Shown here piece after piece: positions 36,208 to 42,963 of a DNA stretch of 64,000 nucleotides. Each line of letters begins with the position of its first letter. The stretch's first letter is position 1. Origin of the DNA: Mechercharimyces sp. CAU 1602. Lineage in GTDB: Bacteria > Bacillota > Bacilli > Thermoactinomycetales > JANTPT01. Position numbers and translations under genes: made by a program. The notes below the pieces were generated by a model. The model was not told the origin of the DNA, did not search any database, and saw only the letters and a list, made by a program, of their open reading frames with translations. Location of the stretch: positions 124,001 to 188,000 of the forward strand of contig NZ_JANTPT010000002.1 in assembly GCF_024753565.1 (NCBI RefSeq), in the 5' to 3' direction.

Positions 36208-36951
36208 TTACCGTGCAAATGTAACTGACTCCATCTTCTTCGGATCACACGCTGCTATAGTCTGAGCACAAGCGTGCAATGTAGCTCCCGTGGTATACAC
36301 ATCATCTACAATCACAATTCGTTTCTGTTTTAACTTATCTTGCACTCGTCCAGAGTATAACGAATAAAGATGTCCCGATCCTTGTAAGCGCGCATAACGG
36401 GAACGTGAACTTTGTACCTGTTCTGAGTGTAAACGCCGTAAAGTGGAAACCATAGGCACACGTAAGCGCCGCGCTATCACCTGAGCTAACAGCTCTGCTT
36501 GGTTATAGCCACGCATTTCCCACCTTGCCGGGGATAGTGGAACATAGGTAATCAGGTCTATGAGCTTCTGATGCTCCCACAAGAGCTCTGCCATCATTTC
36601 GCCCAAAGGTGTTGCCCACTCTCTTTTTCCTTGAAACTTATACATACGTATGATGTGCTTCGCCCATCCTTGATACTGCGTTACACTTCGGTTTCGCACA
36701 AATGTGCGATTTTTGCTACGGCGTTTACACTCCCCACATATTTCCCCATGCCCCATTGCACGACCACAGCGCCAGCAGGATGGGGGCGTGATCCTCTTCA
36801 TTCGTCCTTGACAGCGTCGACACACTTGCTCCCATACCGACGAAAAGCGATGTCCAGCCACTATCGCTGGACAGAACCAACACGTCCTTCCTCGATAAAA
36901 GACTGATTCCCACTTCAACGGTTCCACGCTCCCTCTACTTTTCGCTGTCAT
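36208..36951 (-). CDS. comFC: Competence-associated phosphoribosyltransferase ComFC
   Basis: A 247-residue protein with an N-terminal Cys-rich zinc module (CWFC, CRRC, CWRC, CGEC within the first 75 residues). A C-terminal type I PRTase domain carries the PRPP loop IVIVDDVYTTGAT and the PLSPARWEMRGYNQAELLA segment. ComFC/GntX proteins assist uptake of transforming DNA in competent bacteria. The first base of its ATG is the last base of the comFA stop (TAATG), so they are translationally coupled. Unlike its ComFA neighbour, the key motifs here are intact. Confidence 0.93.
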   Translation of the reverse strand: MTAKSRGSVEPLKWESVFYRGRTCWFCPAIVAGHRFSSVWEQVCRRCQGRMKRITPPSCWRCGRAMGHGEICGECKRRSKNRTFVRNRSVTQYQGWAKHIIRMYKFQGKREWATPLGEMMAELLWEHQKLIDLITYVPLSPARWEMRGYNQAELLAQVIARRLRVPMVSTLRRLHSEQVQSSRSRYARLQGSGHLYSLYSGRVQDKLKQKRIVIVDDVYTTGATLHACAQTIAACDPKKMESVTFAR

Positions 36952-38633
36952 TATAAAGAAGAGATGACACCTCTTTTCTGAGCAAGTCGATTAAGTGAGT
37001 TGATCGTATTCCTCGCTCTTCTTACCTGCCAACTATGTTCTGCCACGATAAAACACACCTCACCCTGCCGGTAGCTAGATGAATGCCCCACATGTTCGGC
37101 TGCATGTACCAATGTGCACCAATCATATTGTGGATCATCTGCGCCTACGACTAATACATGTACTTTTGGCAAGGTGATTGCTCGTCCCAACAGCCGGGTC
37201 GTCAATAAAATGCGTCTTTTCCCCTCCCTAAAGTGTTCCACCTCAATATCTTCTTCTAAATGGGAGGTTACAACAATCCCAAGTTCATCTTCATTCACAT
37301 CCATCCTTCGCATCATCCACTTTCGTAAATTATAGGCTGCGCTTATTCGCGGAACCAATATAAGCGCTTGTCCCTCTGTAGCTCGCACTCTCTCTAAAAA
37401 GCGGCTGATACCCGCTACCTTCCTTCCCGCTCGCATGTGCTCCCACAACCCATGCTTTCGAGATATGCGCGGAACCGCTAGGGGGTGCTGATGGTGACGA
37501 ACTGGAATAATAAGAGAAGCCATTTTCCCTTGCTGAACACGAGCTTGCCAGTATGGTGCAGGGGTGAGCGACAAGATCACTTGCTTTCCTCCGGGGCGTG
37601 TTACCCTATCCATCTTTCTTTCCCTTAAAGCAACCTCTTCTAGCCCCACGCTCTCTCTTTCGTCCATAATAACAAGGGTAAAAAACTGACAAAACCGAAG
37701 CAGTTGTGCCACTGTAGCAACCATGATCTCCCCCTGCTCCCACACTTGAGACCTTTCACCTACCAAATGAACAACCCTGGTCTGGGGAAAATACTGAGCC
37801 AGCTCAGCAGCAATCCCCTCTACATTCCCTCTGTAGGAGGATAGCCACAGTACTCGACCTCCGCTACCCACTACCTCTCTCATTGCAGGTGCCAATAACT
37901 TAATATTGTGGTTCCCTGCAACTGTCCACACCAACAACTTAGTTTGGGTTGCTGCTATAAATTGTCTGCACTGCTCTGCTCCTGCACGCTCCACACTTCC
38001 CCACTGGGACTGCCCAACCTCAATCCATACTTTATTTGCTGGTTGCCCGCTCTCCCACCGTTCCTCCACTTTTCCCGTCGGAAAACGGAGCAGCAACTGA
38101 CAAGAAATGGATTTTCCCATATGTAAGCAAGCACGACACATCAGGCAATCCTTTTTGCAAGAAGCACAATACACTTGCTGCAACTCTTTTCCATCGTGAA
38201 AGCAGCGGTTACACATTCCTCTAACCTGGCTGTATAACGTTATCGCAGGCAAAACCTCGACCTTCCCAGCACAATATAATGCCTGCACTACCTTTCTCAT
38301 CTGTTTTTGTTCCTCGGTACATTGATAATAGGTGAGCAAAGAAGAAAGTTCATGCCACAGCAGCGATCGCCCTTGTGCCCGTTGCCACAACCGCAAGGCC
38401 GATGGCCGCCAAACATCCCATATTGAAGAGTGGGTAAAAGACTGAGCAGAAATAAAATCTACGCTTGTCGTTAGGTGTGACTCACTCACCAAAGCTTGTC
38501 CAAAAGAAGCATATGTACGAACATCCCTTATCTCTATCTGATGTTCCTCCCAATATGCATAATCTAGTTCCATAGCTAGTGAAAAATAGGAGCTCCCTCT
38601 TTTTTTCTGCAATCGATATACTGCCACCTTCAT
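36951..38633 (-). CDS. comFA: ComFA-like helicase homolog with all ATPase motifs degenerate
   Basis: In B. subtilis ComFA is the DEAD-box ATPase that helps pull single-stranded DNA into the cell. This 560-residue protein aligns with it from an extended N-terminus, through a Cys cluster (CNRC, CASC, CLMCRAC, residues 141-170), to the C-terminal helicase lobe. Every catalytic motif is changed. Walker A GAGKTE reads AGNHNIK (about 239-245), DEVD reads DERE (324-327), SAT reads SLT, and the arginine-finger GRTGR reads EHVGH. The frame is uninterrupted. ATG at 38633 has AAAGGAG at 8 nt, just after a large hairpin. It is probably a non-hydrolysing structural descendant; DNA binding through the zinc module may remain. 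Confidence 0.8.
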   Translation of the reverse strand: MKVAVYRLQKKRGSSYFSLAMELDYAYWEEHQIEIRDVRTYASFGQALVSESHLTTSVDFISAQSFTHSSIWDVWRPSALRLWQRAQGRSLLWHELSSLLTYYQCTEEQKQMRKVVQALYCAGKVEVLPAITLYSQVRGMCNRCFHDGKELQQVYCASCKKDCLMCRACLHMGKSISCQLLLRFPTGKVEERWESGQPANKVWIEVGQSQWGSVERAGAEQCRQFIAATQTKLLVWTVAGNHNIKLLAPAMREVVGSGGRVLWLSSYRGNVEGIAAELAQYFPQTRVVHLVGERSQVWEQGEIMVATVAQLLRFCQFFTLVIMDERESVGLEEVALRERKMDRVTRPGGKQVILSLTPAPYWQARVQQGKMASLIIPVRHHQHPLAVPRISRKHGLWEHMRAGRKVAGISRFLERVRATEGQALILVPRISAAYNLRKWMMRRMDVNEDELGIVVTSHLEEDIEVEHFREGKRRILLTTRLLGRAITLPKVHVLVVGADDPQYDWCTLVHAAEHVGHSSSYRQGEVCFIVAEHSWQVRRARNTINSLNRLAQKRGVISSL

Positions 38634-38649
38634 CGTCTCAGCTCCTTTA

Positions 38650-38712: not shown

Positions 38713-39135
38713 TCACTGCGCAAACAGGCGTGGGGGATCTTTTCCTTCGTTAGAGATACGTAAATCTAAAACCAACGTTCGCTTCTCTTCTTTCCACACG
38801 CGCTGACACTCTTCTTCTATCTCTTTTATCAGCGACTTTTCTACCAGTTTATACGTAAGTGAAGAATGTTTTAGATCTAATCTTCTGATAATATCTAGGG
38901 TATCGTCTGTTGAGGGATAGTGAACACAGGTTACCCCACATGACCTTCCCTGGAGACGATTCATTGTATAAAAAGAGCGTATCATCCACTCAACAGAATG
39001 TTGGCTATTTTCTGTTATCAATACCAGATGATCCGCCTCTGGCTGTTCCACTTGAAACCAACAAAGTCGAGAAAGAGTAAGCAGTAGCTCAAACAACCCA
39101 TACATTGCCAAAAGTGACAATACCCACTGCTCCAT
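38713..39135 (-). CDS. Small membrane-anchored GT-A-like hypothetical protein
   Basis: A 140-residue protein with one N-terminal membrane helix (VLSLLAMYGLFELLLTLSRL), then a cytoplasmic domain. HLVLITENSQHSVEWMIRSF, followed by VHYPSTDDTLDIIRRL, is reminiscent of the start of a family 2 glycosyltransferase (S-x-E-w-x-x-R...DDGSTDDTLxIL). It is too short to hold a full GT-A catalytic domain and lacks a DxD, so it is not an enzyme of that type. The ribosome site is GGAGGGG. It is upstream of comFA. Function unknown. Confidence 0.65.
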   Translation of the reverse strand: MEQWVLSLLAMYGLFELLLTLSRLCWFQVEQPEADHLVLITENSQHSVEWMIRSFYTMNRLQGRSCGVTCVHYPSTDDTLDIIRRLDLKHSSLTYKLVEKSLIKEIEEECQRVWKEEKRTLVLDLRISNEGKDPPRLFAQ

Positions 39136-40620: not shown

Positions 40621-42915
40621 CTAACGCCAGCCCATCCGCAGACGGTAATTTCGTCCACTCTGATCATCGGGCGGTCGCACACGAATGTAGTATTTCCCAG
40701 GAGAAAGCGCTGGCTTTAACTTCTCTCTTTTTTCCCCTTTCCATTTCCACTGCATGACTGTATCCAAACGTTGATCATATATGATGACGGATAAGGGGGC
40801 CTTCTCTCCATCCGTTTTAAAATAGATCGTACTCAGTTCTTGCCTGTCCGAAACCTCAAACTCGTACCAGTCAACATCAAAGGGGTAATCAACTGCACCC
40901 ACTACTTCTTCATTAGCTTTAAGTGGTGCTGCTTGCTTTGAATGATTATTAGGTTCATACTCATCCTCTAATATAGGTTCATACTCAAGAAGAAGCTGGT
41001 ATGTACCTGCTACTTGGTTTGCACCATAATCACTAATACGTAGATGTAGTGTTCCATCGACCTCTTTAAACTGATAAGTTTCATCCCTACCATAGGAGGC
41101 CTCATCCACCTTGATCCCTTTCGCTCCTCCTTCGCGCTGGACATAGAGCACTGGATCTGCACGTGGTGTAAATACATTGGCATGTATGGTGAGCTTTCCC
41201 GTCCGAGGGATTTCCACTTGGTACCAATCAACATCTTGGTTTTTATGGAAAGATCCTTTGATCACAGTATATGCGTCCACTACTTCTACCTGATACGCAT
41301 TCCATTGATAATCGTTATTTTCATACTGGTCGGGCATCGGTTGAAAGCTATTGCTAAAAGTATAGGGTGTTTGACGATCTCCCTTTTCCAACGAAGAAAT
41401 CTTCACCTGCACCGAACCTCTAGGAACCGTCACGTAGATCGTCCGCTTTGATTCGACACGATACGATTTCTCCTCACTGTCACCTATTTTAACGGTGACG
41501 CGGGAAAGTGCTGGACTAATATGGTCCATTGACAGTTTCAACGTACCTTCATTAGGCACATCGATACGGAAGCCATCCACATCTTCTTCCCCCGCTAAAA
41601 CAGCTGTTACTTGCTGATCCAGCGATAATGGCATTACCGTATCTTCCGTATTATTAGGTTCAAAAATATCTTCTACTAATGTTTTGGTCAATGCATCACG
41701 AATATTGAAAATTCCAAATCCATCCGCCTCGTTCCAACGTTCTTCCATCGGAGTGGCTGTTTGCCGAATTAAGTTTCTAACCTGCTCCGGGGACCAATCA
41801 GGGTACATTTTCAAAATGAGTGCAGCACCTGCCGCTACTTGAGGGGCAGCAAATGAGGTTCCTGAATCGTAGACATAGCCGCCCTCCAATTTGGTAGAAC
41901 GAATGGATTCTCCTGGTGCTACAACATCAATACCAGGACCATAGTTGGATGTGATTTCATGCTTTCCTTGTTCATTAACTGATCCCACACCTAGTACGGT
42001 TGGAAGGGCAGCCGGATAGTAAAGAGGATAGCTATATAAAATATTGCCCTCTTCATCATGCATTGCATTCCCTGCTGCTCCTACTACGACCACACCTGCC
42101 TTTTCAGCAGCCTGACACGCATCTGCAATCGTATCAGAATATGTCCAACTCCCCTGTGACAACACAATCACATCTGCTCGTCTCTCTATCGCCTTCCGTA
42201 TTCCTTCAGCTGTATGAAATACATCTCCATCTTTTCCATCGTCCATCACCTTGATCGGCATAATATGAAACGTGTCCTTATACGGATCCTGCTTGGCGGT
42301 CCCGCGCCAAACAGAGGCAAGGACACCCGCTACTTGTGTCCCGTGCCCCATTCGATCCTGAGTTGATTCCCCGGTAGACTTAATATTGACTCCCGGAACG
42401 AGATACGGCTTTAAAAACGAATGACTTAAATCAACCCCCGTATCAACCACCGCCACTGTAATCTCTTGTTTATAACGAGCATCGTGCGGAAGATACTCGA
42501 ATGCATGTTCAGCACCGATCCGTGGGAGAAAATTGGTCTTCGAGCGTGGATCAGGAACTCGTTGCCCACGCTCCTCTACCTTATATTTGTGATTGGGCTC
42601 GAGAAAGAGTACATTGCGGTGAGCAGACCACCGCTTCACCCAACCCTCTTCCTCTACCTTATTATCTAGCCGCACCAATAAAGTTTGGGTACTCCCATCT
42701 GCGGGTTGTTGATTCATTACCTCTACCGTTTCCAAAAATTCAGGATCCACCCTCCCTTTCCATTTAATCACCCACTGCTTTTCTTCATACGATTTTAACG
42801 GGACTGATGGATTATAATCTTGATCTGTCTTTCCTTCCGGCGAGACAATCATCCCCAAGACAGCCATAAATGAAATCAGAAAAAAGGCCAACCAACGATT
42901 ATTTAATAGCTTCAT
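40621..42915 (-). CDS. Exported subtilisin-family serine protease with C-terminal PPC-like domains
   Basis: A 764-residue S8 peptidase. It has an N-terminal membrane signal (WLAFFLISFMAVLGMIV) and an inhibitor-like propeptide to about residue 125. The catalytic domain has Asp158 (VAVVDTGVD), His191 (GHGTQVAG), oxyanion Asn283 and Ser354 (SGTSFAAP). Three PPC-like beta domains follow, marked by VDGFRIDV, DVDWYQVEI and DVDWYEFEV, each after an EPNN or YENN box. It is probably a surface or secreted protease. ATG at 42915 is only about 19 nt past a perfect TATAAT, so the mRNA is nearly leaderless and has no clear ribosome site. Transcribed divergently from the LCP gene. Confidence 0.9.
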   Translation of the reverse strand: MKLLNNRWLAFFLISFMAVLGMIVSPEGKTDQDYNPSVPLKSYEEKQWVIKWKGRVDPEFLETVEVMNQQPADGSTQTLLVRLDNKVEEEGWVKRWSAHRNVLFLEPNHKYKVEERGQRVPDPRSKTNFLPRIGAEHAFEYLPHDARYKQEITVAVVDTGVDLSHSFLKPYLVPGVNIKSTGESTQDRMGHGTQVAGVLASVWRGTAKQDPYKDTFHIMPIKVMDDGKDGDVFHTAEGIRKAIERRADVIVLSQGSWTYSDTIADACQAAEKAGVVVVGAAGNAMHDEEGNILYSYPLYYPAALPTVLGVGSVNEQGKHEITSNYGPGIDVVAPGESIRSTKLEGGYVYDSGTSFAAPQVAAGAALILKMYPDWSPEQVRNLIRQTATPMEERWNEADGFGIFNIRDALTKTLVEDIFEPNNTEDTVMPLSLDQQVTAVLAGEEDVDGFRIDVPNEGTLKLSMDHISPALSRVTVKIGDSEEKSYRVESKRTIYVTVPRGSVQVKISSLEKGDRQTPYTFSNSFQPMPDQYENNDYQWNAYQVEVVDAYTVIKGSFHKNQDVDWYQVEIPRTGKLTIHANVFTPRADPVLYVQREGGAKGIKVDEASYGRDETYQFKEVDGTLHLRISDYGANQVAGTYQLLLEYEPILEDEYEPNNHSKQAAPLKANEEVVGAVDYPFDVDWYEFEVSDRQELSTIYFKTDGEKAPLSVIIYDQRLDTVMQWKWKGEKREKLKPALSPGKYYIRVRPPDDQSGRNYRLRMGWR

Positions 42916-42934
42916 ACCACAATTATACCCACGC

Positions 42935-42963
42935 ATTATACTGAATACAACGACCTTGTACAA
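42935..42963 (-). promoter_or_regulatory. Promoter of the subtilase gene
   Basis: TTGTAC, a 17-nt spacer, then TATAAT on the minus strand. The -35 is one half of the palindrome CTTGTACAAG (42955-42964), shared with the divergent promoter. Confidence 0.6.

Follow-up and report, generated by a model that had tools for sequence, protein, structure and literature searches.

The comFA locus

The window, which is the whole stretch of 64,000 nucleotides analysed from Mechercharimyces sp. CAU 1602, carries on its minus strand a comFA orthologue encoding 560 amino acids (36951..38633), characterized by alignment, a single-copy search and conserved columns as a pseudoenzyme by sequence. The frame starts with an ATG at 38633, 8 nt after a ribosome-binding site AAAGGAG (38642..38648, minus), and runs through 560 codons with no internal stop, in agreement with the preliminary description of this DNA. 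The translational coupling that had been described was likewise seen, the TAA of comFA overlapping the ATG of comFC (TAATG). The comFC gene (36208..36951, minus) was found to be intact, encoding a protein of 247 amino acids with a zinc ribbon and a phosphoribosyltransferase domain (VDDVYTTGAT).

The encoded protein matched live ComFA, the form that retains its catalytic motifs, over nearly the full length, with E values down to 2e-99. This similarity, together with a single best match, a cysteine zinc site and the coupling to comFC, identifies it as the ComFA orthologue. Across the genome of 2.93 Mb it was the single ComFA match, and no second, intact ComFA was found elsewhere in those 2.93 Mb, which excludes the spare copy that the preliminary description had raised as an objection to its own reading.

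Directly upstream of comFA, and with a ribosome-binding site of its own, lies a gene for an uncharacterised protein of 140 amino acids (38713..39135, minus), which has a hydrophobic N-terminus that looks like one membrane segment and gave no Pfam or NCBIfam match over the cut-off. In almost all genomes of the order a homologue was present in the stretch that carries comFA, beside dead and live comFA alike, and homologues also occur in some other Bacilli. Its position and its own ribosome-binding site make it a candidate for an uncharacterised competence-operon protein. Upstream of both metK and this gene, a 780-amino acid subtilisin-like secreted protease related to the mycosins of type VII secretion is encoded at 40621-42963 (minus).

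State of the helicase motifs

Alignment with relatives revealed that Walker A (motif I, residues 239-245, 37899..37919, minus) reads AGNHNIK in place of TGAGKTE, that motif Ia is lost (SYRGNV for PRKDVV) and that the motif III position (residues 355-358, 37560..37571, minus) holds SLTP for TATP/SATP. The motif V position (37167..37208, minus) reads LLTTRLLGRAITLP where live relatives have LVTTTILERGVTVP, with a core of TTRLLGRAIT for TTTILERGVT. Motif VI, which provides the arginine fingers (37083..37112, minus), is LVHAAEHVGH for LVQIAGRVGR, with both arginines gone (HAAEHVGH for QIAGRVGR). The earlier statements on Walker A, on the change of SAT to SLT and on the replacement of GRVGR by EHVGH were thus confirmed. 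The broader claim that every ATPase motif had been destroyed was correct for Walker A and motifs III, V and VI, but not for Walker B (residues 324-327, 37653..37664, minus), where the D and the E are kept in DERE (DEAD/DEVD in live relatives) and the change is limited to the residues after them. Among the features expected of an active ComFA, the Walker B DE is therefore present, and the P-loop GxGKT and the GRxGR are absent.

Other parts of the protein were found to be retained. The zinc-site cluster (residues 141-178, 38100..38213, minus), previously described as four or more cysteines, is indeed kept, but this was an understatement, since all eight cysteines are present (C141, C144, C156, C159, C163, C166, C169 and C178). 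The inter-domain segment RHHQHPLAVP (residues 379-388, 37470..37499, minus) corresponds to the ComFA signature RxHxxPLPxP, in which R, H, P and P are invariant in all dead copies, and the C-terminal tail (residues 521-556, ending in LNRLAQKRG, 36966..37073, minus) is conserved at a live-like level. Judged by its sequence, the ComFA of the window is a pseudoenzyme that has lost its ATP- and DNA-translocation motifs. The loss of helicase motifs in a conserved protein is the pattern of a pseudohelicase, and with Walker A and motifs Ia, III, V and VI destroyed, ATP-driven translocation would not be expected. An AlphaFold2 prediction built from four sequences only gave a model too weak to be relied on (mean pLDDT 57, pTM 0.39), for which the SF2 helicases UvrB and Dbp5 and the Snf2-type remodeller Chd1 were among the best Foldseek matches, with E values of about 1e-7 to 1e-9 and TM values of only about 0.25.

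Distribution and number of origins

ComFA proteins were read across the class (n = 88), the order being represented by the window genome and 41 further genomes. Six of the 88 copies lack the catalytic motifs, namely those of the window, of Shimazuella kribbensis, S. soli and S. alba (NCBI family Thermoactinomycetaceae), and of the genomes G034 and G017, which belong to two other genera of the order, so that related genomes do share the dead motifs, as the preliminary description had proposed to check. Each of the six retains all eight zinc-site cysteines. The window genome has no close relatives in the genome set, and a first contig scan with the window protein as query found no relative. A profile search of 399 genomes of the class placed ComFA in roughly 300 genomes outside the order (counted by hand), and the 26 lowest-scoring of these, picked from the survey, all possessed Walker A and Walker B. 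The idea that motif loss is a general trait of divergent ComFA was rejected on this basis. The higher-scoring ComFA proteins outside the order are, from their scores, probably intact, only the 26 low-scoring ones having been read individually. As far as sampled, dead ComFA thus appears to be confined to one order and to be recurrent within it.

Several of the 26 low-scoring proteins were short, and in the related genomes G238 and G270 ComFA was split between two sites: a 340-amino acid reading frame with intact helicase motifs (L168, L170) and, at a distant site, a reading frame of 351-369 amino acids with an N-terminal zinc domain (L192, L193). In the profile search, no sampled member of families f12, f19, f26, f39 and f50 gave a match at the level of ComFA (best E only about 1e-13 to 1e-23). 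The class members L074, L078, L081, L084, L087 and L091-L094 have intact ATPase motifs and have lost the middle zinc-site cysteine pairs, the reverse of the dead copies.

A tree of ComEC and ComFC, in which ComFA was not used, required four changes between live and dead states, at least three of them forced by well-supported branches. The clearest separate loss was that of G017, which is dead while its congener and sister G011 is fully live, and a single ancestral loss was rejected by this placement. The ComFA motor appears from these sequences to have been lost independently at least three, and probably four, times in the order. In the tree of ComFA itself G034 grouped with Shimazuella, which we read as long-branch attraction of fast-evolving sequences; if the grouping were real, the losses would number three and not four.

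Selection on the dead copies

Columns conserved in at least 90% of the live members of the order comprised 36 motif columns and 59 others. The window copy keeps 14 of the 36 motif columns versus 49 of the 59 others (Fisher p = 1.6e-5), which excludes chance as the source of its motif loss, and across the six dead copies the corresponding ranges were 7-20 of 36 and 34-53 of 59 (Fisher p 6e-3 to 2e-5). Live outgroups kept on average 95% of the motif columns and 74% of the others, and every live ComFA compared, within or outside the order, retained at least 86% of the motif columns. When live relatives were mutated neutrally until an equal number of motif residues had been lost (300 runs), the mean number of stops was 13-25 and the minimum 4, against none in the real dead genes. 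The comparison of synonymous and non-synonymous change that had been called for was made by the GY94 method for the two dead copies of S. soli and S. kribbensis, and gave an omega of 0.080 (likelihood-ratio statistic 175 versus neutrality); as dS for this pair is near saturation, the omega is approximate and the rejection of neutrality firm. Pairwise YN00 was mostly unusable owing to saturation, and the dS of distant Shimazuella pairs was too large to be trusted.

Constraint was found to differ along the protein. Identity in RecA1 was 0.37-0.53 for Shimazuella pairs versus 0.69-0.80 for live pairs, whereas the RxHxxPLPxP segment (0.78-0.83 versus 0.61-0.89) and the C-terminal tail (0.69-0.75 versus 0.67-0.76) were at the level of live pairs and the zinc domain was close to it (0.58-0.64 versus 0.62-0.78). 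In Shimazuella, constraint was also weaker in the N-terminal region preceding the zinc site and in a short stretch ahead of motif I; the relaxation is thus centred on the motor core and not perfectly limited to it. Relative to ComEC, the branches of dead ComFA are about twice as long as those of live ones, with ComFA and ComEC lengths of 1.67 versus 0.96 in G000 (dead) and 0.71 versus 0.94 in G015 (live). This twofold faster evolution implies that part of the dead protein is under relaxed selection. That ComFA in these lineages is a pseudoenzyme and that its full length is selectively maintained are together well supported, and both are held with high confidence.

Competence partners in the dead-ComFA genomes

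In the six genomes with dead ComFA, ComEC retains 77-81 of 81 highly conserved residues and ComFC 46-49 of 51, and the Walker and nucleotide-binding motifs of ComGA are intact, with the prepilin genes adjoining. The genes comEA, dprA and comFC are present, and PriA is intact and of full length in all of them. The presence of comEA, comEC and comK had been suggested as a test. The first two were found, with comGA, dprA and comFC also present and conserved, but comK is missing, as in nearly the whole order (not found in 41 of 42 genomes, and found in one). Its absence was accordingly rejected as a sign of lost competence. Another genome of the order, G038, presents a different picture: comFA, comFC and dprA were not found, while ComEC, ComEA and ComGA remain, and this is how decay of the system looks in the order.

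Such decay offers an alternative account of the dead copies, in which competence is no longer used and comFA, as the most dispensable part, is degrading first. The roughly twofold faster evolution of ComFA relative to ComEC agrees with it, as does G038, which demonstrates that the system does decay in the order. Nevertheless, slow decay is improbable given the absence of stops from six copies where neutral drift gave 13-25, an omega of about 0.08, partners as conserved as in live lineages and a loss selective for the motifs, with cysteines, inter-domain segment and C-terminal tail kept; in G038 itself, moreover, the genes were lost together and no dead full-length ComFA is left.

An equally improbable alternative places the comFA-comFC pair outside DNA import altogether, for example in a phosphoribosyl or DNA-handling function linked to ComFC that needs no motor. 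ComFC-type proteins are widespread beyond the known transformable species and the translational coupling of the two genes is kept in the window, both as this account would have it, but comEC, comEA, the comG operon and dprA are also kept and conserved, which would be unexpected if the pathway had been abandoned.

Very unlikely is a third possibility, that ATP binding or hydrolysis persists through the altered motifs. Both G017 and the window copy keep the Walker B DE, AGAGK survives in S. alba (G024), and the window copy passes the Pfam cut-off for Helicase_C, albeit weakly and as its only domain (24.8 bits, cut-off 23.5), whereas DEAD, ResIII and Helicase_C all give good matches in live relatives. 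Against these remnants, the window copy is without the P-loop lysine-threonine, the SAT and the arginine fingers, and the Walker B glutamate is also gone from the three Shimazuella copies and G034. Finally, a sequencing or assembly error, named in the preliminary description as a way in which its reading could fail, can be dismissed, since the many separate substitutions leave the frame open and the same pattern recurs in six independent genomes, three named Shimazuella isolates included.

Comparison with known systems

The window protein resembles the ComFA of B. subtilis and S. pneumoniae, an ssDNA-dependent ATPase/translocase, as an orthologue with the eight-cysteine site, the RxHxxPLPxP segment and the C-terminal tail, encoded by a single-copy gene coupled to comFC in a genome with comEC, comEA, comG and dprA. 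It differs from known ComFA in the destruction of Walker A and motifs Ia, III, V and VI. In B. subtilis, ComFA stabilises ComGA without needing its ATPase, a function that the Walker A mutant K152E retains; in this mutant ComGA and periplasmic uptake are normal, yet it is described as inactivating for transformation (PMC8262900). K152E is a ComFA without catalysis, as that of the window is predicted to be, although it is a laboratory point mutant and the loss in the window is natural, extensive and fixed. Pneumococcal ComFA was reported to bind ComFC and DprA (Diallo 2017, as cited in PMC8262900 and PMC12236230).

A parallel is found in the PriA of D. radiodurans, a biochemically proven pseudohelicase that has lost Walker A and B and kept its binding to DNA and to a partner (PMC4504706). 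Both are proteins kept after the loss of SF2 helicase motifs, the ComFA of the window being known from sequence alone, and ComFA has been described as analogous to PriA. The D. radiodurans protein acts in replication restart and its state is reported as a phylum-level trait, whereas the loss in ComFA has occurred repeatedly inside a single order that also contains live relatives. In Gram-negative bacteria DNA import takes place in the absence of ComFA (PMC9005727, PMC12455585), and PriA has been proposed for its role there (PMC12455585). The dead-ComFA genomes share with those systems ComEC, ComFC/ComF and DprA and the lack of an active ComFA, but they retain a dead copy where the Gram-negative systems have none at all. 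No report of a naturally dead ComFA was found in the open-access literature, subscription papers lying outside the scope of the search.

Interpretation and significance

The presence of dead ComFA beside an otherwise intact uptake system suggests a structural rather than a motor role. Selection for a non-catalytic function, proposed in the preliminary description, gains support from the recurrence of the loss, the low omega, the simulations of stops and the conserved partners, while the exact scaffold function is one that we infer. It is considered probable, with moderate confidence, that the pseudoenzyme is kept as a scaffold, through its zinc domain and C-terminal tail, for ComFC and the uptake machine. 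The dead protein would still fold and sit at the membrane, where it would keep ComFC, perhaps together with DprA, at the cytoplasmic opening of the ComEC channel; it may also stabilise the pilus ATPase ComGA. Import of the strand without the ComFA ATPase could then proceed by a ratchet of ComEC strand degradation and capture of ssDNA by ComFC, DprA or SSB; alternatively, another motor such as PriA may drive it, as proposed for Gram-negative bacteria without ComFA. Counting against this scaffold reading are the relaxed selection on part of the protein and the Walker B DE that the sequence of the window copy keeps. Furthermore, as the Walker A lesion of B. subtilis blocks transformation, loss of the ATPase should be costly unless it is replaced, and no replacement has been identified.

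In Gram-positive bacteria, ComFA is regarded as the motor by which transforming DNA is pulled into the cell. A more far-reaching proposal, advanced only tentatively, is that ATP-driven pulling by ComFA is not essential in Gram-positive import, and that these lineages transform with ComFA purely as a platform for ComEC, ComFC and ComGA, import being achieved by ComEC degradation and capture or by a recruited motor (PriA). Lineages that have the whole uptake machine and have repeatedly lost the catalytic site of its motor are in effect a separation-of-function experiment performed by nature. They suggest that ComFA has a role independent of ATP, which would involve its zinc domain, RxHxxPLPxP segment and C-terminal tail, they raise the question of what truly powers strand import, and they include named species in which dead ComFA may be tested, Shimazuella kribbensis, S. 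soli and S. alba.
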